Positions 34,209-62,075 of a stretch of 64,000 bases of DNA are shown here, one piece after another (positions within the stretch are counted from its first letter, which is position 1; every line of letters starts with the position of its first letter). A program made the translations under genes and the position numbers. The notes beneath the pieces are model-generated. The model was not told the DNA's origin, did not search any database, and saw only the letters and a program-made list of their open reading frames with translations. Origin of the DNA: Acinetobacter sp. C26M (GTDB lineage: Bacteria; Pseudomonadota; Gammaproteobacteria; Pseudomonadales; Moraxellaceae); NCBI RefSeq assembly GCF_023702675.1, contig NZ_CP098478.1, positions 62,001 to 126,000 on the forward strand. Reading direction: 5' to 3'.

Positions 34209-34254
34209 AAAATTATAAAAAACCCTTTAAATTTTAAAGGGTTTTTTATAATTT
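34209..34254. terminator. bidirectional terminator after psd, touching a dif-like site
   Basis: AAATTATAAAAAACCCTTTAA pairs with its complement ending TTTTTTATAATTT. The stem is strong and symmetrical, serving psd and the convergent unknown gene. Its last four bases are shared with the dif-like site that begins at 34251. Confidence 0.9.
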
Positions 34255-34278
34255 CGCATAAGCTGTATTATGTTAATT
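34251..34278 (+). repeat. dif-like XerC/XerD site A
   Basis: Arms and spacer read ATTTCGCATAA, GCTGTA, TTATGTTAATT. This fits the 11-6-11 layout of chromosomal dif and of Acinetobacter plasmid pdif sites (XerC arm, spacer, XerD arm). The orientation is XerC to XerD on the plus strand. It lies immediately after psd and marks the left end of the accessory region. Confidence 0.8.
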
Positions 34279-34295
34279 TTAGATTCTCTAATTAT

Positions 34296-34985
34296 TTAAC
34301 CTAGTTTACTCTTGCTGGGACTAGGCATCTCCAAACCATCTTTTAAATGTTTAATAAACTTATTGATACAAGGATAAGAAGAGGAGCCACACGCTTGTCT
34401 AAAGTTTTCCAGTAAAAAATGATTATCTTGTGTTGAAACTAAATACTTAAATTGTTCTGTTATCATCTGTTGATCACAAACATGATGAGACCATGCAGAT
34501 AATACTGTTTCTAAGTTATTTAAATAACTAATTATTTCCCATCTTAGTAATCCTGAAAATTCCTGTTTTAGAGTAAAAAATTGCTGATTGTCTATTTCAA
34601 TTCCTTCGTGTCCTTGTTTTTCAATATTTGGAAAAATCGTTAAAAAATTGTTTTTATACTTTATGTCAATATTCATGATAGCTTCTTGATTTAATAGCTG
34701 TTTGGATTGCTCAAACGTGAAATTTTCAACTAACTTTCTAGCAAGTGTTGAAGACCTCTCTAGTGTTTCATCCCAAAACATTAATAAATCTATAGCTTTC
34801 TCCTTCCTTGCTCTCTCATGTTCTTGTTTAAATACCTTTCTACTTAGACAAAACTGACAAATAATTATGCCTGAGAGAATTAGGTTCAAAATAACCACCA
34901 CCACCATTACCCAATCTGTAACTTTTGGCTCTGCGATTTGTTGTAATGTCGAAATAAGTTGCTGAGAAATAGGAATATCTTTCAT
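34296..34985 (-). CDS. unknown membrane-anchored protein in a dif-flanked module
   Basis: An unrecognised 229-residue protein. One transmembrane helix (VTDWVMVVVVILNLILSGIIICQFCL, about residues 22-48) is followed by a basic and acidic helical stretch (SRKVFKQEHERARKEKAIDLLMFWDETLERSS) and a cytoplasmic, mostly helical domain. The overall shape, one N-terminal anchor and a WDE-containing helix, recalls small DUF4760-like proteins, but I would not assign it. Codon use is AT-rich compared with psd. It fills the space between two inverted dif-like sites almost exactly, so it is likely the cargo of one mobile module. Confidence 0.65.
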   Translation of the reverse strand: MKDIPISQQLISTLQQIAEPKVTDWVMVVVVILNLILSGIIICQFCLSRKVFKQEHERARKEKAIDLLMFWDETLERSSTLARKLVENFTFEQSKQLLNQEAIMNIDIKYKNNFLTIFPNIEKQGHEGIEIDNQQFFTLKQEFSGLLRWEIISYLNNLETVLSAWSHHVCDQQMITEQFKYLVSTQDNHFLLENFRQACGSSSYPCINKFIKHLKDGLEMPSPSKSKLG

Positions 34986-35076
34986 AATTAGAAGTACAGA
35001 AAAAATTAGTCATACTCTAAAAGAAAATAGTAAAAAATATAAGTATATTCAGCATTTATTAATTCAATTTCCACCT

Positions 35077-35104
35077 ATTTAACATAATAGGCGTTATGCG
35101 AAAC
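35077..35104 (-). repeat. dif-like XerC/XerD site B (inverted)
   Basis: Read on the minus strand: GTTTCGCATAA, CGCCTA, TTATGTTAAAT. It is inverted relative to site A and closes the first module. The spacer equals that of site C. Confidence 0.78.
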
Positions 35105-35170
35105 CGTACTTAAAAAGTTATTTTAAATCAATTTATTACAAATTTTACATAACCCCCAAAAACACCCAAA

Positions 35171-35201
35171 AGCCGACTTAGAAACAAGTCGGCTGCTTTT
35201 T
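35171..35201. terminator. hairpin terminator, twin of the one at 39315
   Basis: AGCCGACTT AGAAAC AAGTCGGCT followed by GCTTTTT. A near-identical hairpin stands in the same place after site D, which supports duplication of the whole unit. Confidence 0.8.
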
Positions 35202-35346
35202 AAGCAAATTTGTCACTTTTAGCCAATAAAATTGGTCAAAAAGCACTCAAAAATTCAAATTTTCCTGATTTCTTAAGGCTTCAATGACCTACTTTTATCC
35301 CCATTTCCTGCGGACAAATATCGGGATAATTTGAGGATATGTCCAT

Positions 35347-35538
35347 GTACGTTCTGGCGTACAACAATTCAGGAAAATTGCCAATAGGCACATTTAGCTC
35401 AATTTCCTATTATGGATTCATCGAGAACAGGATGTTCCATATAACAACAATAAGATCAGCGACAGGACGCGAGGGATGACAGGAGTTGACCCTAGTACCA
35501 AATACGAAAAACCCCGACAGGATGTCGGGGGTTTTTTA
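35347..35538 (+). ncRNA. putative small RNA, copy 1 of a three-copy family
   Basis: About 190 bases related to copies at 39385 and 40804. Shared parts are GTACG near the 5' end, a long-range stem (AGGAAAATTG with CAATTTCCT), a hairpin GAAC/GTTC around AGGAT, the stretch AGGACGYGAG..ATGACAGGAGTTG, AATACGAAAAA, and an intrinsic terminator (CCCCGACA GGA TGTCGGGG then TTTTTT). No coding capacity. Strand is set by the T-tail, although the terminator could also serve the convergent restriction gene, whose stop is 17 bases away. It is the most divergent copy. The nature as an expressed RNA is inferred. Confidence 0.55.
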
Positions 35539-35554
35539 TTGTCATTCTCAAATA

Positions 35555-36346
35555 TTAACCTTTAAACTGCATTTTTTGAGCTCCACTGCCACTAGCATAA
35601 GTCCAATTCAAACCAGTTCCAAATCCTGGTTTTCTAACTTTAGATCCCTCAGCAATCCGATCACTTATATAATCATCAATATTTGTTATTGTTACATCTA
35701 CATACTCACGATCAATCACTTTAAATCGAATCAATAAGTCTGGATGTAAAATATTTCCTTCGCTTTTTTCAGCACTTAACGTAACACACCAACGAATAAA
35801 CTGCTCTCTGTATGGTTCCAATAGTTCTGTTAAACGCTGCTTTTGAACATTAGTAAATAACTTAGCACTTTGATCATTTTGATGTTTACGCATTAATTCT
35901 TTCAACTCACCATCAGGAATACCAACACCGCGACATATTGTTTCCACATCATATTCTGCAATAGATACTTTAGGTTTACTTGAATGTTTAATATTCAATG
36001 GTACTAATCTTTTTGTGCCATCATATAAGTGAATAGTGATACAAGCATCTGTCTTTGGTAATCCACCAGCAATGGTTCGCCCCAGACTACTATCACTACT
36101 ACTTACATCTGAAATATCTTCAAGATAAATATTTAAGGCTTCTAAAATCCTATTAACTATCGTAGATTCTTGAGGATATACAATAGGGTCACTATAGAAA
36201 ATCATAGTTTTGAAATCACTAAAAATTTCTAATATGTATCGTTCATATAGTTTACCTAGCCTATCAGAAGTCCTTCCATGCTGTTCTAACGGTAGATTAT
36301 CTATTCCAAATTCTTCATATAGTTCTGCTAGTAGTTCAGTTCTCAT
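35555..36346 (-). CDS. MspI-like type II restriction endonuclease (CCGG)
   Basis: A 263-residue endonuclease that I recognise as a close relative of R.MspI from Moraxella, which cuts C^CGG as an unusual monomer-active type II enzyme. The start MRTELLAELYEEFGIDNLP and the stretches DVSSSDSSLGRTIAGG, IKHSSKPKVSIAEYDVETIC, HQNDQSAKLFTNVQKQRLTE and GFGTGLNWTYASGS are near-identical by memory. Catalytic residues map to Asp100, Asn118 and Lys120 (MspI 99, 117, 119). It is divergent from its methyltransferase gene with a 111-base intergenic region. The AT-rich composition and position among dif-like sites indicate transfer. Specificity is inferred from similarity. Confidence 0.93.
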   Translation of the reverse strand: MRTELLAELYEEFGIDNLPLEQHGRTSDRLGKLYERYILEIFSDFKTMIFYSDPIVYPQESTIVNRILEALNIYLEDISDVSSSDSSLGRTIAGGLPKTDACITIHLYDGTKRLVPLNIKHSSKPKVSIAEYDVETICRGVGIPDGELKELMRKHQNDQSAKLFTNVQKQRLTELLEPYREQFIRWCVTLSAEKSEGNILHPDLLIRFKVIDREYVDVTITNIDDYISDRIAEGSKVRKPGFGTGLNWTYASGSGAQKMQFKG

Positions 36347-36402
36347 ACTCTTACCTAAACCAATGTTTTATATAATTTTGATCTAGTTAAGATAATCATT
36401 AA

Positions 36403-36447
36403 TTGACTTATATTGGCGCTGTACGGATAATATGAAAAAATATATCC
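36403..36447 (+). promoter_or_regulatory. methyltransferase promoter with overlapping operator
   Basis: TTGACT (36403-36408) and GATAAT (36426-36431) are 17 bases apart, a good sigma-70 promoter that would start transcription near 36438. An interrupted palindrome with arms GGATA (36425-36429) and TATCC (36443-36447) covers the -10 region and the expected start. The methyltransferase has an N-terminal helix-turn-helix, and MspI-type methylases are reported to repress their own synthesis, so this is a likely operator. Confidence 0.55.
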
Positions 36448-36457
36448 ATCGACCGTA

Positions 36458-37720
36458 ATGAAACCTAAGACACTTAAAGCACTCCGTAACCGTTTACAAA
36501 TGACACAAAAGCAAATGGCCGATTTGCTAAATGTTTGTTCCAAAACATGGCAAGCTTGGGAAAATGGTACTAATCCTATGCATATTGCTTTTGCTAAATT
36601 ATTAGAACAAAAAGTGAAAAATGAATTATCTTTACCTAATGCTAAAACTACAGATAAGCTTCTAAAAAATAAGATAATCTTTTCTGAATACAATCAGACT
36701 CAAATTACAAAAAGTGCTGAAGATTTAGCAATTATTACGCACAGAGATGTATTTAAAGGTGTTCTTTCTGAAGGATTCACCTTCATTGACCTATTTGCTG
36801 GAATAGGTGGAATTCGACAATCATTTGAAAATCATGGAGGAAAATGTATCTTTTCCTCTGAAATTGATCCTTTTGCTAAATTTACCTACTACACAAACTT
36901 TGGTGAAGTTCCTTTTGGAGATATTACTAAAATTTCAGTGGATTCTATTCCTAAGCACGATATTTTATGTGCGGGATTCCCATGTCAACCTTTTAGTCAT
37001 ATCGGTAAAAGAGAGGGGTTTGAACATCCAACTCAAGGGACTATGTTTTATGAAATTGTGCGTATCATAAAAGATAAAAAAACACCTGTCCTTTTTCTAG
37101 AAAATGTTCCCGGACTAATTAATCATGATGATGGGAATACATTACAGATAATTATTGAAACCCTCCAAACTATGGGATACAAAGTACAACATACTGTTCT
37201 TGATGCAAGTCATTTTGGTGTTCCCCAAAAGCGTAAAAGATTTTATTTGGTAGCCTTCTTAGATCAAAAAATTCAATTTGAATTTCCTAAACCTCCAATG
37301 ATTTCTAAAGATATTGGTGAGGTTTTGGAACAAGATATAACTGGATATAGTATTTCTGAGCATCTCCAAAAAACATACTTATTTAAAGTAGATGACGGAA
37401 GACCAACATTAGTTGATAAAAACTCAACTGGGGCCATAAAAACGCTAGTTTCGACTTACCATAAGATTCAGCGTTTAACGGGTACCTTTGTAAAAGATGG
37501 TGAAACAGGCATCAGACTATTAACTACAAATGAATGTAAAGCAATTATGGGTTTCCCTGAAAATTTTGTTATCCCTGTATCTAGAACCCAAATGTACCGC
37601 CAAATGGGAAATTCTGTTGTAGTTCCTGTTGTTACAAAAATTGCGGAACAAATCTCTTTAGCTTTAAAAAATGCCAAACAAAAATCACCGATAGAAAATT
37701 TTGAGTTAGAACTAAGTTAA
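36458..37720 (+). CDS. MspI-like DNA cytosine-C5 methyltransferase with regulatory N-terminus
   Basis: A 420-residue methyltransferase closely resembling M.MspI, which protects CCGG by methylating the outer cytosine. Residues 1-55 are a helix-turn-helix (MTQKQMADLLNVCSKTWQAWENG) as in M.MspI, used there to repress its own gene. Motif I is FIDLFAGIGGIRQSF, motif IV GFPCQPFSHIG with catalytic Cys176, motif VI LFLENVPGL, motif VIII FGVPQKRKRFYLVAF and motif X MYRQMGNSVVVPV. The target recognition region is about residues 275-365. It must act before the nuclease; the divergent layout allows this. A weak terminator follows. Confidence 0.95.
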   Translation: MKPKTLKALRNRLQMTQKQMADLLNVCSKTWQAWENGTNPMHIAFAKLLEQKVKNELSLPNAKTTDKLLKNKIIFSEYNQTQITKSAEDLAIITHRDVFKGVLSEGFTFIDLFAGIGGIRQSFENHGGKCIFSSEIDPFAKFTYYTNFGEVPFGDITKISVDSIPKHDILCAGFPCQPFSHIGKREGFEHPTQGTMFYEIVRIIKDKKTPVLFLENVPGLINHDDGNTLQIIIETLQTMGYKVQHTVLDASHFGVPQKRKRFYLVAFLDQKIQFEFPKPPMISKDIGEVLEQDITGYSISEHLQKTYLFKVDDGRPTLVDKNSTGAIKTLVSTYHKIQRLTGTFVKDGETGIRLLTTNECKAIMGFPENFVIPVSRTQMYRQMGNSVVVPVVTKIAEQISLALKNAKQKSPIENFELELS

Positions 37721-37725
37721 CAATA

Positions 37726-37751
37726 AAAGTCCCTAAATAAGGGGCTTATTT
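37726..37751 (+). terminator. weak terminator after the methyltransferase gene
   Basis: AAGTCCC and GGGGCTT pair (one G-U) around seven bases, followed by ATTT. It runs directly into dif-like site E. Confidence 0.5.
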
Positions 37752-37775
37752 AACATACAATCTCTTATACGAACT
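37748..37775 (-). repeat. degenerate dif-like site E
   Basis: Minus-strand reading: AGTTCGTATAA, GAGATT, GTATGTTAAAT. The XerC arm matches the published pdif arm ATTTCGTATAA in 10 of 11 bases; the XerD arm differs from TTATGTTAATT at two. It is weaker than sites A-D and may be a relic of the insertion that brought the restriction genes. Confidence 0.5.
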
Positions 37776-37776
37776 C

Positions 37777-37806
37777 AAAAATGGAAGCTTATAGCTTCCA
37801 TTTTTT
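37777..37806. terminator. bidirectional hairpin terminator
   Basis: AAAAATGGAAGCT TAT AGCTTCCATTTTT is a near-perfect palindrome with a T-run on both strands. Confidence 0.8.
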
Positions 37807-37811
37807 GTCTA

Positions 37812-37976
37812 TTAGACATTGAATCCTATGTGTTTTCCCGTTGGAAGCTCTACATCAATACGAAGTTTTCCGCCCATTGCTTCACATACTTTTTCATCGT
37901 TGAAATTTTCAGATCATTTCTACGATTTTCGATAAATTCCCTTAATGGTTTACCAATAGTCAAAACAATATTTATT
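37812..37976 (-). pseudogene. relic of an Xre/HigA-type antitoxin-like gene
   Basis: Two minus-strand frames join to give a coherent C-terminal fragment: IGKPLREFIENRRNDLKIS then TMKKYV in one frame, then EAMGGKLRIDVELPTGKHI then GFNV and TAA in another. One base is missing after GT of the YV codon pair at about 37889. The pattern KKYVEAMGGKLRIDVELP is typical of helix-turn-helix antitoxins. A stop codon (TGA) interrupts the frame shortly upstream, so the N-terminal half is lost. No toxin gene is visible beside it. Probably the remains of a toxin-antitoxin module carried by the same mobile unit. Confidence 0.55.
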
Positions 37977-38027
37977 CAAGTGCTACTAAGACAGATATTT
38001 ATACTGTAAAAAACCTGATAAAAACTA

Positions 38028-38058
38028 AAAAGCCTATCTTAAAAATTGGCTTTATTTT
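38028..38058 (-). terminator. terminator after the Sel1-repeat gene
   Basis: AAAGCC and GGCTTT pair over a loop of about 13 bases; on the minus strand TTTTTAGTTTTT follows. It lies two bases from the stop codon. Confidence 0.55.
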
Positions 38059-38060
38059 TA

Positions 38061-38420
38061 TTAGATTCTATCAATAAAGTTTTTTGCCTGAGTATTGCCT
38101 TGATCGGAAGACTTTTTTAACCACTCAAGAGCCTTATTATGATCTTTTGGTACACCTACACCATAATAATAAAGTATACCTAATCTATATTGTGCTATAG
38201 CATTGCCTTGCTCAGCCGACTTTCTATACCATGACCCAGCTTCTAAAAAGTTCTGAGCAACACCATCTCCCATAACGTACATCGAACCAACTTTCAATTG
38301 CACCTTAGCATCACCTTTCTGAGCTAAATCCAATGTTTCTTTAAAACTAGCAACATTTTCAGCAAAAGCCGTATTCAAAAACACACATGCAACACCCGCA
38401 AGCAACAATTTTTTTATCAT
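38061..38420 (-). CDS. small exported Sel1-repeat protein
   Basis: A 119-residue protein with a signal peptide MIKKLLLAGVACVFLNTAFA and then almost only Sel1-like repeats: VQLKVGSMYVMGDGVAQNFLEAGSWYRKSA, then AIAQYRLGILYYYGVGVPKDHNKALEWLKKSS and a last part unit. Sel1 repeats are protein-protein binding helical pairs. Exported short forms are common accessory proteins in Acinetobacter; the role is unknown, possibly periplasmic adaptor or immunity-like. It lies between dif-like sites E and C with its own terminator, so it may be the cargo of a further module. Confidence 0.8.
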   Translation of the reverse strand: MIKKLLLAGVACVFLNTAFAENVASFKETLDLAQKGDAKVQLKVGSMYVMGDGVAQNFLEAGSWYRKSAEQGNAIAQYRLGILYYYGVGVPKDHNKALEWLKKSSDQGNTQAKNFIDRI

Positions 38421-38523
38421 TCTGAATCCTGAAAATTTAAATATAAAATAGCAAATTACATTGATAATAATTTTACTTAAAAATGACTGAATTGACAGAT
38501 TTTAAAGATCATTTTTCATTTCA

Positions 38524-38551
38524 ACTCCGCATAACGCCTATTATGTTAATT
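38524..38551 (+). repeat. dif-like XerC/XerD site C
   Basis: Arms and spacer ACTCCGCATAA, CGCCTA, TTATGTTAATT on the plus strand. It is oriented like site A, and lies 42 bases beyond the 3' end of the next minus-strand gene, as site A does for its gene (17 bases). Confidence 0.75.
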
Positions 38552-38593
38552 TTAGGAAATCTTAAACTTAGACTACAGCTAAAAGGATTAGAT

Positions 38594-39121
38594 TCAGTTC
38601 AGAATCTTTCTTCTGACTAGGTCTTTATTTTCATTTGATAAACCTAAGTAGACTTTATAAATCAGATCAACTAAGTCCTTTTCTAAAATACCTTTATCAT
38701 CTTCTTGCTTAAGAACATTGATCCTAAACAATGAGTTAAGACTTTTACTGTAATCCCAACAATAATCAGATAATTTTACTTTCAACTCTTCATAGCTCTC
38801 ATCATTCTCATCTAAGGTCTGATACCAATTAGCTAGAACTATCTCAGTTTTTCTCCCATCCAAATAAGAGCGGTTTAATTCAGCATATTGCTTTGCATTC
38901 ATATTCTGATAACCGATATATTTTGATGGAGCAAATAAATATTTATTTTCCACTTCATCCCAATACGCATACCAAGCTCTGTAATGAGAGATATTTTCTA
39001 CTAGCAATGTAATTGATTTATCACAATCACCATCTACATAAAGATCCAACTCATGATTAAAATGTTTAATATTTTTAATTACTTCTTCGTTGTTAGTAAC
39101 TAAACGTGGTTGCTCAGTCAT
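38594..39121 (-). CDS. unknown acidic protein in a second dif-flanked module
   Basis: An unrecognised 175-residue soluble protein, rich in Asp, Glu, Lys and Tyr. A notable stretch is ISHYRAWYAYWDEVENKYLF, followed by APSKYIGYQNMNAKQYAEL. I have a faint memory of similar FAPSKFIGY segments at the N-terminus of defence or restriction-related proteins, but cannot name a family. The C-terminal part (LEKDLVDLIYKVYLGLSNENKDLVRRKIL) is helical. There is no signal peptide or membrane segment. It is the only gene between dif-like sites C and D, and AT-rich. ATG start at 39121 has the ribosome binding site AAGGGGA upstream. Confidence 0.65.
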   Translation of the reverse strand: MTEQPRLVTNNEEVIKNIKHFNHELDLYVDGDCDKSITLLVENISHYRAWYAYWDEVENKYLFAPSKYIGYQNMNAKQYAELNRSYLDGRKTEIVLANWYQTLDENDESYEELKVKLSDYCWDYSKSLNSLFRINVLKQEDDKGILEKDLVDLIYKVYLGLSNENKDLVRRKILN

Positions 39122-39220
39122 GACTATATTCCCCTTGTTTGTTTAGTTCATTTAGTCCTTGAACTCATTGATTACAATTTAATATAGCACTAATGTTCTG
39201 TCAATTGTTTTTCATTCCTC

Positions 39221-39248
39221 ACGTAACATAATGGGCGTTATGAGAAAT
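39221..39248 (-). repeat. dif-like XerC/XerD site D (inverted)
   Basis: Minus-strand reading: ATTTCTCATAA, CGCCCA, TTATGTTACGT. The inner half of each arm is intact; the outer XerD bases have drifted. It closes the second module. Confidence 0.68.
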
Positions 39249-39314
39249 CAAATTTAAAAATTTAATTTAAATCAAATGCTTAAATTGATTTAACACCCTA
39301 AAAAAACAACAAAA

Positions 39315-39344
39315 AGCCGACTTAGACACAAGTCGGCTTTTTTT
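39315..39344. terminator. hairpin terminator, twin of the one at 35171
   Basis: AGCCGACTT AGACAC AAGTCGGCT followed by TTTTTT. Only one loop base differs from the copy at 35171. Confidence 0.85.
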
Positions 39345-39384
39345 GGAGCAGTTTTGATATGTTTTGCCAAGCTCTAACCTTACC

Positions 39385-39586
39385 TGTACGTTTTTGCTTA
39401 CACCAATTCAGGGCAATGTCCCATTTTCAGTCAAGGCTGAATTGCCTAATATGAACTCATCAGGAACAGGAAGTTCCAAAACATAAAACAAGAATGATAA
39501 GTTTGTGCATCAGGATGTGAGATATGACAGGAGTTGTATCTAGTGAAAGGAATACGAAAAAGCCCGACAGGATGTCGGGCTTTTTT
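39385..39586 (+). ncRNA. putative small RNA, copy 2
   Basis: About 200 bases, roughly nine-tenths identical by eye to copy 3. It folds as GGCAAT (39411-39416) with ATTGCC (39440-39445) enclosing TTCAG/CTGAA, then a hairpin GGAAC/GTTCC, then a single-stranded stretch, then the terminator GCCCGACA GGA TGTCGGGC with TTTTTT. No open frame is conserved between copies. The 3' end meets the 3' end of the minus-strand LysR gene 36 bases further on. Multi-copy small RNAs related to phage C4 antisense RNA are reported from A. baumannii; whether this is one of them needs a covariance search. Confidence 0.6.
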
Positions 39587-39622
39587 CATTTAAGCTGAAA
39601 CTCAGTCAGTTGTTTCTCTCAT

Positions 39623-40519
39623 CTATTTGGCACTGTAATAGGCATGAATCGATGCTGCACAACGTTCAACGATTAGATCTTCATCCTTTTTCCAGATGAG
39701 TTTCACTTCACTGAGGGTGTTCTCATCCTGAATCGGAATCAGTCTGACATTACTTGGTAAAATCACTTTAAACTCTTCGGGCACAATACACACGCCAAAA
39801 CCATTGGCGACCAGTTCCAGTTGAGACCTTTTTCGTGAATAGATTCTGGTTCTTTTTGGACTAAAACCATTCACCAAACATAAATTGGCTGCCAAATAAC
39901 TTAAGCCACCACGGGCTTTATGCGGTACAGAAACAAAATTTAATGGCTCCAATTCACGGATCGATATACTTTCTTTTTCACTTAATAATGGGTCTGCAAT
40001 ATGGGCAGCAACATATAAAGGGGCAGTGTATAAACTGATCGAATTGACATCATTTAAATTGTGATAAATCGGGGGGCGAATAAAACCCAGATCAATTGTC
40101 CCATTCAATAAATATTCGAGCTGTAATTCAGAGGATAGCGTATTCATTTCGATATCAATGTTATAGATATCACAGAGCTGCTCAAAGATTTCCAGCTTAT
40201 TTTGATCCAACACAATACTACTGGAATGGGCAATTTTAATGATTCGACCTTCACCACGGCTGATGCTTTGGGCACTGACAATGGAACTTTTTAAATGATC
40301 GATATTGGTTTTTAGACTTTTATACAGGGCTTCCCCAGCAGGTGTGAGTCTAATTTTCTTTTCAGATCGATCAAAAATTTCAAAACCGATTTCTTCTTCT
40401 AAATTTTTAATTTGTCTGCTTAGGGCGGATTGAGCAATAAACAGCTTCTCCGAAGCGGCAATAAACCCCCCAGTTTCAACAATCGTGATTAGATAATTAA
40501 ATTGTTTTAATGTCCACAT
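39623..40519 (-). CDS. LysR family transcriptional regulator
   Basis: A 298-residue LysR-type regulator. The helix-turn-helix is at residues 3-60 (TLKQFNYLITIVETGGFIAASEKLFIAQSALSRQIKNLEEEIGFEIFDR), and the substrate-binding domain follows from about 90 with DLGFIRPPIY, typical of CatM/BenM/CbbR-like proteins. A tiny gene lies divergent 97 bases upstream, which would be the usual place for its target, but that gene codes for only 41 residues. It and the small gene are bracketed by small-RNA copies 2 and 3 as direct repeats, so they might have been inserted or be lost as a unit. Effector unknown. Confidence 0.9.
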   Translation of the reverse strand: MWTLKQFNYLITIVETGGFIAASEKLFIAQSALSRQIKNLEEEIGFEIFDRSEKKIRLTPAGEALYKSLKTNIDHLKSSIVSAQSISRGEGRIIKIAHSSSIVLDQNKLEIFEQLCDIYNIDIEMNTLSSELQLEYLLNGTIDLGFIRPPIYHNLNDVNSISLYTAPLYVAAHIADPLLSEKESISIRELEPLNFVSVPHKARGGLSYLAANLCLVNGFSPKRTRIYSRKRSQLELVANGFGVCIVPEEFKVILPSNVRLIPIQDENTLSEVKLIWKKDEDLIVERCAASIHAYYSAK

Positions 40520-40741: not shown

Positions 40742-40803
40742 TAGATTCATCCTACTCAGTTTCATATGATTACTGACTTTTTAAGGGTGAGAAAGCTCAG
40801 CGA

Positions 40804-41006
40804 TGTACGCTTTTTCTTACACCGATCAGCGGTAATATCCCATTTTCAGCCAAGGCTGAATTGCCTAATATGAACTCATCAGGAACAGGAAGTTCCAGAA
40901 CATAAAACAAGAATGATAAGTTTGCGCATCAGGACGTGAGATATGACAGGAGTTGTATCTAGTGAAAGGAATACGAAAAAGCCCGACTTGGATGTCGGGC
41001 TTTTTT
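40804..41006 (+). ncRNA. putative small RNA, copy 3
   Basis: About 200 bases close to copy 2. Differences preserve pairing: the inner stem is TTCAGCC/GGCTGAA, longer than in copy 2, and GGTAAT still pairs with ATTGCC through a G-U pair. The terminator loop differs (GCCCGACTTGGATGTCGGGC). The T-run reaches into the end of the minus-strand LysR gene (stop at 41005), so the hairpin probably ends both transcripts. No dif-like site precedes this copy. Confidence 0.6.
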
Positions 41007-41904
41007 ATTTAATATTGATTTGTTTTTCCCATAGCTCAATCAAGAGCTGCATGGATTTGCTCAGTGGTTTATAAGCTGGCCAAATCGCATGAATCGGCAT
41101 ATCCAGTCCATTGGTGGTATCCAGAAAGGCTAAGCGCACCAGACTGTGTTTGGCAAAATGTGTTTGCACTACAGAAAGGGGGAAATTACCCCAACCGAGT
41201 CCTTGTTCCACCATATCAATCGCCATGGATAAATTATCGCTGTACCAATATGAATCGGAGACCAATACCCGACTATCAGGTAATGGATAATGCTTGCTTG
41301 CAACAATAATCTGTCTGAGTTCAGATAACATAGTGAGTTCATTTTTATTATGCGCTTTGAGCTGTTGCGCATCTTTAGGTGAAACGGCAGCAACAAATTG
41401 TTCCATGCCCAGCAAGCGAAAGCGTTCATTATTATCGAGTTGTGATGAGCTATAGGCGATATAGAGATCGATCTCGTTCTGGTGTAGCCGTGTTTTGAGC
41501 TCTTGTTGTGGTGCGCTGACTATTTCAATATTTAACAATGGAAAACGTTGAATCAGTTGCTCAATACTTGCTAATAAAAATTTTTGATTCACATCTGCGG
41601 CAATGCCAATGCAGAGGCTGGTCTCCAATCCTGTTGAAAGCTCGGTTAGATGCAGGTCGAGTTGACGTAATTTGGTCACAATCAATCGGGCATGCGGTTC
41701 AATTGAAAGGGCGACTTCGGTAGGGGCGAGATGATTTTTGCTACGCTCAAACAGTTTTAAGTTTAGCTCTGCTTCAAGATTGGCAATCGCCATGCTGACT
41801 GCTGAAGGGACCCGATTTAAGGCGCGCGCTGCCGCAGAAAAATTACCTCGATCAATAATTTCAAGAATCAGTTCAAGCTGTTCACGACTGAGCTTCATAG
41901 TCAT
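41005..41904 (-). CDS. LysR family regulator, AceR-like
   Basis: A 299-residue LysR-type regulator with an N-terminal helix-turn-helix (LSREQLELILEIIDRGNFSAAARALNRVPSAVSMAIANLEAELNLKLFERS) and a substrate-binding domain (LCIGIAADVNQKFLLASIEQL). It is divergent from a PACE-family efflux gene 88 bases away. In A. baumannii AceR, a LysR protein, activates the divergent aceI gene in response to chlorhexidine, so a similar job is inferred. The VPSAVSMAI recognition helix is typical of this subgroup. Its 3' end overlaps the terminator of small-RNA copy 3. Confidence 0.88.
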   Translation of the reverse strand: MTMKLSREQLELILEIIDRGNFSAAARALNRVPSAVSMAIANLEAELNLKLFERSKNHLAPTEVALSIEPHARLIVTKLRQLDLHLTELSTGLETSLCIGIAADVNQKFLLASIEQLIQRFPLLNIEIVSAPQQELKTRLHQNEIDLYIAYSSSQLDNNERFRLLGMEQFVAAVSPKDAQQLKAHNKNELTMLSELRQIIVASKHYPLPDSRVLVSDSYWYSDNLSMAIDMVEQGLGWGNFPLSVVQTHFAKHSLVRLAFLDTTNGLDMPIHAIWPAYKPLSKSMQLLIELWEKQINIK

Positions 41905-61597: not shown

Positions 61598-62075
61598 TGA
61601 GAAGATTATTCTATTGATGATAAATATTATGAAATTAATTTTTCTTCAAAACATAATTTAATGAATGATATGGGGAGTTGTATCACTATTTTAATCCTGA
61701 CTCAACTATTACCTATACTTTCCACTCTAAAAAGCTAGTTGAAATTTTAATTAAATATGAAAATAAAAGTGTGCATTCATCAAAGGGTGTTAGTAATGGA
61801 ATGATTGTTGAAAATATAAATAATAATTTTATAGGAATACCCGTTATACACTCTGATAGTGAAGATAAGAGTGAACAAACAGACCTACTTATAGGGATCA
61901 GGTAACATATGATGCTAAGAAAGGACAGTATACGTATCTTGCAAATGTTAAAACTTATCAAGATGGAAAAATTTCCCCATTCAAGGTTGTTTTGAATAGT
62001 AGCTTAAAATGTATCTCTTCAACCTTAGGTTGTGAAACTACAGGTGTTTTAGCAGCTGAAAAAGATATTAAGTAA
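61598..62075 (+). pseudogene. frameshifted remnant of an exported cargo-region protein
   Basis: Three frames carry consecutive protein-like pieces. Frame one gives EDYSIDDKYYEINFSSKHNL (61598 on). Frame two gives YHYFNPDSTITYTFHSKKLV then onward to SEQTDLL (61681-61894). Frame three gives PTYRDQVTYDAKKGQYTYLA then onward to CETTGVLAAEKDIK and stop at 62075. The pieces abut, so at least two frameshifts, near 61672 and 61890, broke one gene, and its N-terminus is lost. A 75-residue frame inside (61678-61905) is unlikely to be a real gene. Probably a decayed immunity or effector gene. Confidence 0.55.

Follow-up and report, generated by a model that had tools for sequence, protein, structure and literature searches.

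A probable dif-module island with exchanged cargo and a linked Rsm-like RNA unit between psd and lysR on an Acinetobacter chromosome

The stretch of DNA analysed here (the window; 64,000 nucleotides, positions 62,001 to 126,000 of the single 3.93 Mb contig NZ_CP098478.1 of Acinetobacter sp. C26M) holds a row of dif-like sites between psd, the gene for phosphatidylserine decarboxylase (Pfam PF02666; 33352..34203, plus strand), and a lysR-type regulator gene (39623..40519, minus strand). Four 28-bp sites, each composed of a XerC arm, a 6-bp spacer and a XerD arm, were found by a pattern search of the window that allowed up to three mismatches, at the positions and in the orientations claimed by an earlier note on this DNA (C1:96251-101248 in contig coordinates, hereafter C1). 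Site A (34251-34278, plus; ATTTCGCATAA GCTGTA TTATGTTAATT) follows the psd terminator and is the left anchor of the row, B (35077-35104, minus; GTTTCGCATAA CGCCTA TTATGTTAAAT) and C (38524-38551, plus; ACTCCGCATAA CGCCTA TTATGTTAATT) have equal spacers in opposite orientation, and D (39221-39248, minus; ATTTCTCATAA CGCCCA TTATGTTACGT), whose spacer is one base off theirs, is the right anchor and precedes a chromosomal small-RNA gene. In the order A+ B- C+ D- the orientations C/D and D/C alternate, and several modules stand in a row on a chromosome, as in a dif-module island. The four sites have 0, 1, 2 and 3 mismatches among them to the search pattern; a chance origin was rejected, as five matches were seen in 64 kb against 0.03 expected and at least five were reached in none of 100 shuffles. 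Across the whole contig a looser pattern gave five exact matches, four of them being A-D, and at up to two mismatches it found 20 matches against 20 for the reversed control, so only strong matches carry meaning. A fifth, degenerate site, E (37748-37775, minus, spacer GAGATT), lies between B and C at the right border of a restriction-modification (R-M) module, and its XerD arm begins with G in place of T. Since a pdif site with a XerD arm starting CTATG was judged likely inactive in the available part of PMC13141974, E was treated as a fossil and is probably dead; with it the order becomes A+ B- E- C+ D-, explained by the loss of a plus site.

The pairs A-B and C-D each enclose one minus-strand gene of unassigned function, gene1 (229 aa; 34296..34985) and gene3 (175 aa; 38594..39121), as the earlier note had stated. 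Neither matched a family in Pfam or NCBIfam, and AlphaFold run without alignments gave mean pLDDT (predicted local distance difference test) values of 37 and 43, respectively, for which reason no fold search was made; the reading of gene1 as a two-transmembrane (2TM) effector was dropped, the PADLOC match (E 0.0056) being too weak to use. The description as single-gene modules does not extend to the B-C interval, which the note left undescribed and which holds an MspI-family restriction endonuclease (35555..36346, minus), a C5 DNA methyltransferase with an N-terminal helix-turn-helix (HTH; 36458..37720, plus) and, between E and C, an HTH antitoxin gene remnant (37810..37933, minus) and a Sel1-repeat protein of 119 aa (38061..38420, minus). 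Residues 7-51 of the methyltransferase, its HTH, resemble the VC1465-family Xer recombination activation factor (36.7 against a cut-off of 70 bits); this is probably just a common HTH. Among 175 genomes of the genus, counting this one, gene1 occurs in 2, gene3 in 4 and the endonuclease in 2.

With the end of psd plus site A as the query, 172 of the 175 genus genomes were matched, and 40 psd-downstream regions were taken for comparison (29 best matches and 11 more distant ones; loci carry handles such as L147). Nine of the 40 have a plus site at the position of A, some of them degenerate, and five (L147, L149, L151, L155, L166) have both a good A and a good D. In L171 a D-type site is present as well, and two open reading frames (ORFs; by eye, transposase pieces) separate its plus site from psd. 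In all five anchored relatives homology to the window stops at 34282-34284, i.e., within 6 bp of A, and resumes at 39224, inside D, so that genomes differ exactly at the 28-bp sites, the comparison by which the earlier note had proposed to judge its reading. Pairwise identity at A (10 genomes, ungapped) is 0.88, falling to 0.34 immediately inside the site and to 0.43 outside it, where the ban on gaps understates the value; at D (6 genomes, ungapped) it is 0.85, compared with 0.29 on the inner and 0.51 on the outer side. The cargo between the anchors differs: when ORFs of at least 70 aa from the window and 23 other loci were all compared with one another, the sole cargo match among site-bearing genomes was the Sel1 gene, shared by L155 and the window. 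L147 carries a transposase and a DNA methylase like the DUF1156 anti-phage methylases (below curated cut-offs), and L151 and L166 carry single unassigned genes. Chromosomal-looking genes (names by eye) are often common to genomes that lack the anchors, e.g., LysR- and LysE-type genes in L152, L161, L167, L168 and L170, and a PhzF-type gene in L152, L162 and L167, in part also in L168. At the same locus in L165 (251-3653, psd-first), two identical inverted ORFs of 457 aa (by eye, transposases) enclose an inverted dif-like pair, and the chromosome of Acinetobacter sp. ANC 3832 has an inverted pair of strong dif-like sites ca. 7 kb past psd (L057 17928-18515).

Counterparts of this cargo are found on Acinetobacter plasmids, with matching borders. 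Plasmid pA52-2 of A. baumannii contains the window interval 34242-35546 (A, gene1, B and a non-coding unit described below) at a DNA identity of 93.5%, the gene1 protein being 99.1% identical. Homologues of the R-M pair (DNA identity ca. 75-78%) are present on pMsp22, pTB2-2B-4, pAJ_068-3 and, in pieces only, pANC7201.2; in all four the module ends on the right at a minus site whose spacer is GAGATT, as at E, and three (L026, L027, L029) have a plus site to the left, the first two with one additional ORF inside the module. On pANC7201.2 (L029) this plus-oriented site separates the non-coding unit from the endonuclease; it is missing in the window, so the B-C block is best read as putatively fused modules, and the order that results is A+ B- C+ D-. 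Gene3 is found on two Acinetobacter plasmids (ca. 81% protein identity), with homology extending into a D-like site (three XerC-arm mismatches in L191) and a border match at the D end only. The Sel1 module was not found in the plasmid search, where the Sel1 protein had generic relatives only, at less than 60% identity. Thus, the view that pdif-type modules sit here in a housekeeping background is borne out both by the relatives, which differ at the sites, and by the counterpart modules on plasmids.

The endonuclease on pMsp22 (strain NEB149) is identical to the crystallised R.MspI (PDB 1sa3) over 262 residues and is therefore, judged by sequence, R.MspI, which means that MspI itself is located in a pdif module on this plasmid. 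The window endonuclease and methyltransferase are homologues of the MspI pair of pMsp22 (77% and 76% identical, respectively), and on identity alone the former would be predicted to recognise CCGG; the window pair differs from that of pMsp22 in being chromosomal, in having lost the left pdif site and in having a degenerate right one. A literature search combining MspI and pdif found no relevant report; one for dif modules with restriction-modification listed PMC7399989 and PMC9455709, and according to the available part of the latter, what GR13 plasmids carry includes restriction-modification. The presence of a textbook restriction enzyme in a pdif module means that restriction systems can travel by such modules.

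On this evidence we consider it likely that the locus is a chromosomal dif-module island at a conserved psd-lysR position, its cargo having been exchanged between the anchors A and D. These anchors would be old, and the DNA between them would have been replaced repeatedly by cargo of the plasmid pdif-module kind, the present arrangement reading A+ (gene1) B- (small RNA, R-M pair, E, antitoxin remnant, Sel1) C+ (gene3) D-. Movement by XerC/XerD, which we infer from the borders, would proceed by fusion of a plasmid with the island at sites that have equal 6-bp spacers, in keeping with the spacer rule for pdif recombination (PMC13141974, in part), and resolution at a different pair of sites would swap one or more modules. 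Cointegrates at D are plausible with plasmids that also have sites with the spacer CGCCCA (pAB1, L190, L192 and pMsp22), and inversion of the middle block should be possible, given that B and C are oppositely oriented and both have the spacer CGCCTA. The genome encodes a XerD that scores above the curated cut-off and, below cut-off, a second tyrosine recombinase that is presumably XerC. Simple excision of modules appears doubtful: the tested xrs cassettes were not excisable according to the part of PMC11705084 available, and exchange via cointegrates is favoured for this reason, though the available part of PMC13141974 reports module-pair excision by PCR (polymerase chain reaction).

Several observations weigh against this account, the failed excision of xrs cassettes among them. 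XerC/XerD catalysis, the cointegrate route and the B-C inversion are deductions; the R-M module of the window has no left site, with ca. 8 bp between the non-coding unit and the endonuclease; E and the sites of several relatives are degenerate; and the seven anchored rows are spread over a tree built from the kinase gene downstream (33 rows; a single-gene rather than a species tree), where they require at least six changes and cluster no better than shuffled labels. This scatter implies that homologous exchange of the whole locus also occurred or that sites were often lost and, with decayed A sites still recognisable in L150 and L156, the anchors look either old and often lost or exchanged together with their flanks. 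Natural transformation, with homologous recombination on the psd and lysR sides, could instead have moved whole alleles and left the sites as passive relics of plasmid assembly, a scenario that would also suit the decayed sites in those two and other genomes and the absence of either site from close relatives of the window (L153, L159, L160). However, in all five anchored relatives the change of cargo coincides exactly with the inner edges of the two anchors, a pattern that flank recombination alone would not yield, and we regard this scenario as improbable. Far less credible still is that the sites are copies of the replication-terminus dif or attachment sites of a Xer-using phage. The 28-bp architecture is identical, and filamentous-phage-like genes (by-eye reading) adjoin the real dif, but the window lies 62-126 kb from the start of the contig, whose first gene we take, by eye from its translation, to be dnaA, and a terminus-type dif (ATTTCGTATAATGTATATTATGTTAAAT; spacer TGTATA) lies at C1:2052148-2052175, 52% around the chromosome; moreover, no phage family was found among the tested cargo proteins. 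The suggestion of the earlier note that one of A-D could be the terminus dif was consequently rejected on position, at C1:96-101 kb, and on sequence and spacer.

The element is real and, as a dif-module island, of a known kind; its setting is new: an anchored chromosomal locus whose cargo differs between genomes, MspI-type genes among it, and a linked Rsm-like RNA. The chromosomal dif-module island of Acinetobacter sp. M10 (PMC12907356, 2026) likewise has alternating dif-like sites in a row and modules shared with plasmids; it spans 36 kb and is rich in resistance genes, no anchored cross-species locus was found described in the available part of that paper, and a search of it for the terms psd, restriction and RNA found none. 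Modules of Rep_3/OrfX plasmids share the 28-bp sites, the alternating C and D modules, fused modules and the spacer rule (PMC13141974, in part), whereas the modules here are chromosomal and lie between outer sites that are conserved; no small RNA or non-coding unit was found when the same paper was searched for such terms. Extra chromosomal dif sites with terC and add modules are alike in that the sites resemble pdif and that single plasmid-like modules sit on chromosomes, and no anchored locus with differing cargo was found in the part of PMC6449649 available. With orthologous outer sites and cargo that differs between species, gain and loss of dif modules become traceable at single-site resolution, and the linked RNA unit merits separate study.

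The earlier note described the sites correctly and overlooked this small-RNA unit, copies of which stand beside B and D. Beside B, a linker of 238 bp with a hairpin (35105..35342, plus) leads to a plasmid-type core (35343..35546, plus; palindrome 35346-35363, hairpins and terminator 35418-35536), and beside D a linker of 136 bp with a hairpin (39249..39384, plus), i.e., the plasmid linker minus ca. 100 bp, leads to a chromosomal-type core (39385..39592, plus; palindrome 39385-39402, hairpins and terminator 39457-39586). A third core (40803..41010, plus) has no adjoining dif site. Each core opens with a GacA-box-like palindrome, after which come AGGA-loop hairpins and a terminator. Compared with the GacA box, the palindromes of 72 copies, many of them near-identical and without a shuffle control, gave 3 exact matches, 55 with one mismatch, 10 with two, 3 with three and 1 with five. 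Across 32 copies and 18 hairpin pairs, 95.8% of cells pair, against 25-45% in slid controls, and both sides have changed in 12 of the 18 pairs; one hairpin was excluded from the count, its register differing between subtypes. The paired fraction, the two-sided changes and the covariation score were each reached in none of 500 shuffles, and the number of further pair types in 72 of 500. In the three copies of the window CAGGA occurs 5, 5 and 4 times, where 0.3-0.4 would be expected (reached in none of 500 shuffles), total GGA is weakly raised (7, 6 and 6 against 5.1, 3.8 and 4.0, reached by 62-83 of 500 shuffles), and ANGGA is not enriched in these copies. Rfam gave no match at gathering level: RsmY matched the D copy at 27.4 bits (E 6.7e-5) and the B copy at E 0.05, both below the gathering score of 57. 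A covariance model (rough E-values) gave matches in 169 of the 175 genus genomes, seven of them in this one, which also has a CsrA gene; chromosomal Gac/Rsm RNA members in Acinetobacter had been predicted earlier (PMC7366521, Table 1, and PMC5568370, each in its available part). A further core copy, without a reported adjoining dif site, lies at C1:3716068-3717067. We conclude that the unit is a predicted member of the Gac/Rsm-type RNA family; it shares AGGA hairpin loops, a GacA-box-like palindrome and a terminator with RsmX/Y/Z and CsrB, and differs from them in occurring also on plasmids, spaced at a fixed distance from pdif. The repeat was also considered as a C4-type antisense RNA (PMC5320573, in part) and rejected, Rfam giving no match to C4 at any E up to 1, and as a plain plasmid-backbone edge, against which speak the copies without a dif site at window 40803-41010 and in L152 and L161.

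The 442-bp unit beside B matched 1077 records of a plasmid collection by blastn (1055 Acinetobacter; 296 over at least 80% of its length) and the 204-bp core matched 345 (324 Acinetobacter; 122 over at least 80%), in a collection that has redundant entries and includes at least one record of chromosome size. We scanned 26 plasmid loci, a non-random set of which 12 were chosen for matching the window and 14 came from 60 of the 345 core-bearing records; three (L027, L028, L193) have no copy of at least 100 bp, leaving 23 copies. A D/C site with its XerC arm facing the RNA lies upstream in 21 of these, while such a site lies within 400 bp of random positions in the examined records in 11%; the remaining two lie near insertion sequence (IS) elements. 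In the 15 full-length copies the core lies 227-242 bp from the site (238-242 bp in 14), and in the six partial ones 284-300 bp, which fits an alignment-trimmed 5' end. In the window the distance is 238 bp for the B copy and 136 bp for the D copy, the latter agreeing with the 131-137 bp of four relatives and, once its trimmed start is corrected, with L151. The linker is conserved throughout, the chromosomal version being short by ca. 100 bp, so the fixed distance largely reflects shared descent of one block, and the copies are not independent events. On eight complete plasmids the unit is present at a minority of sites (8 of 52), and toxin-antitoxin genes follow it often, not always. The linker of the window (35105-35342) contains the plasmid-conserved blocks GCCAATAAAAT and TTATCCCCATTTCCTGCGGACAA, perhaps protein-binding sites.

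For the role of the unit we put at about even chances the proposal that pdif C modules in Acinetobacter carry a fixed block (pdif D/C site, linker of ca. 240 bp, GacA box, Rsm-type RNA) that acts as a mobile CsrA sponge. The copy beside B would then be a plasmid-type Rsm/Csr RNA that binds CsrA, by which plasmids and islands would tune the Gac/Csr system of the host; like Rcd at cer, the RNA might also signal or affect Xer recombination at the linked site. It could instead be an insulating terminator or an accessory sequence of the Xer complex held at a fixed distance from the XerC arm. The conservation of the linker itself, with its hairpin, would suit such a function, as would the many plasmid matches that span the hairpin part only and the behaviour of ANGGA and total GGA, yet the covarying AGGA-loop hairpins, the abundance of CAGGA, the GacA-box-like palindrome and chromosomal copies without an adjoining site, e.g., 40803-41010, are at odds with it and leave it rather unlikely. 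A comparable system is ColE1 cer with its Rcd RNA (PMC5357621, in part), where a plasmid small-RNA gene is also tied to a Xer site; Rcd, however, is encoded within cer and binds tryptophanase, whereas the RNA described here starts more than 240 bp from its site and looks like a CsrA binder. Literature searches for a linkage of RNA and pdif found no report among the matches listed; in one of them, the sole paper among those listed to mention pdif, csrA and small RNA, PMC12442408, does so in unrelated passages. The association of an Rsm-type RNA with pdif sites points to a testable route by which module-bearing plasmids could act on the host regulator CsrA, which A. baumannii is reported to require for growth on rich media (PMC12802169, in part).

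Elsewhere on the contig, a second dif-like site lies 8.6 kb from the terminus-type dif (C1:2052148-2060786, L229), and the interval, with duplicated small genes and a Zot-like gene (names by eye), looks like a Xer-integrated filamentous phage. A lone dif-like site with the spacer GAGATT, as in E, is found at C1:3877746-3877826 (L231), with a weaker site in the same orientation 53 bp further on.

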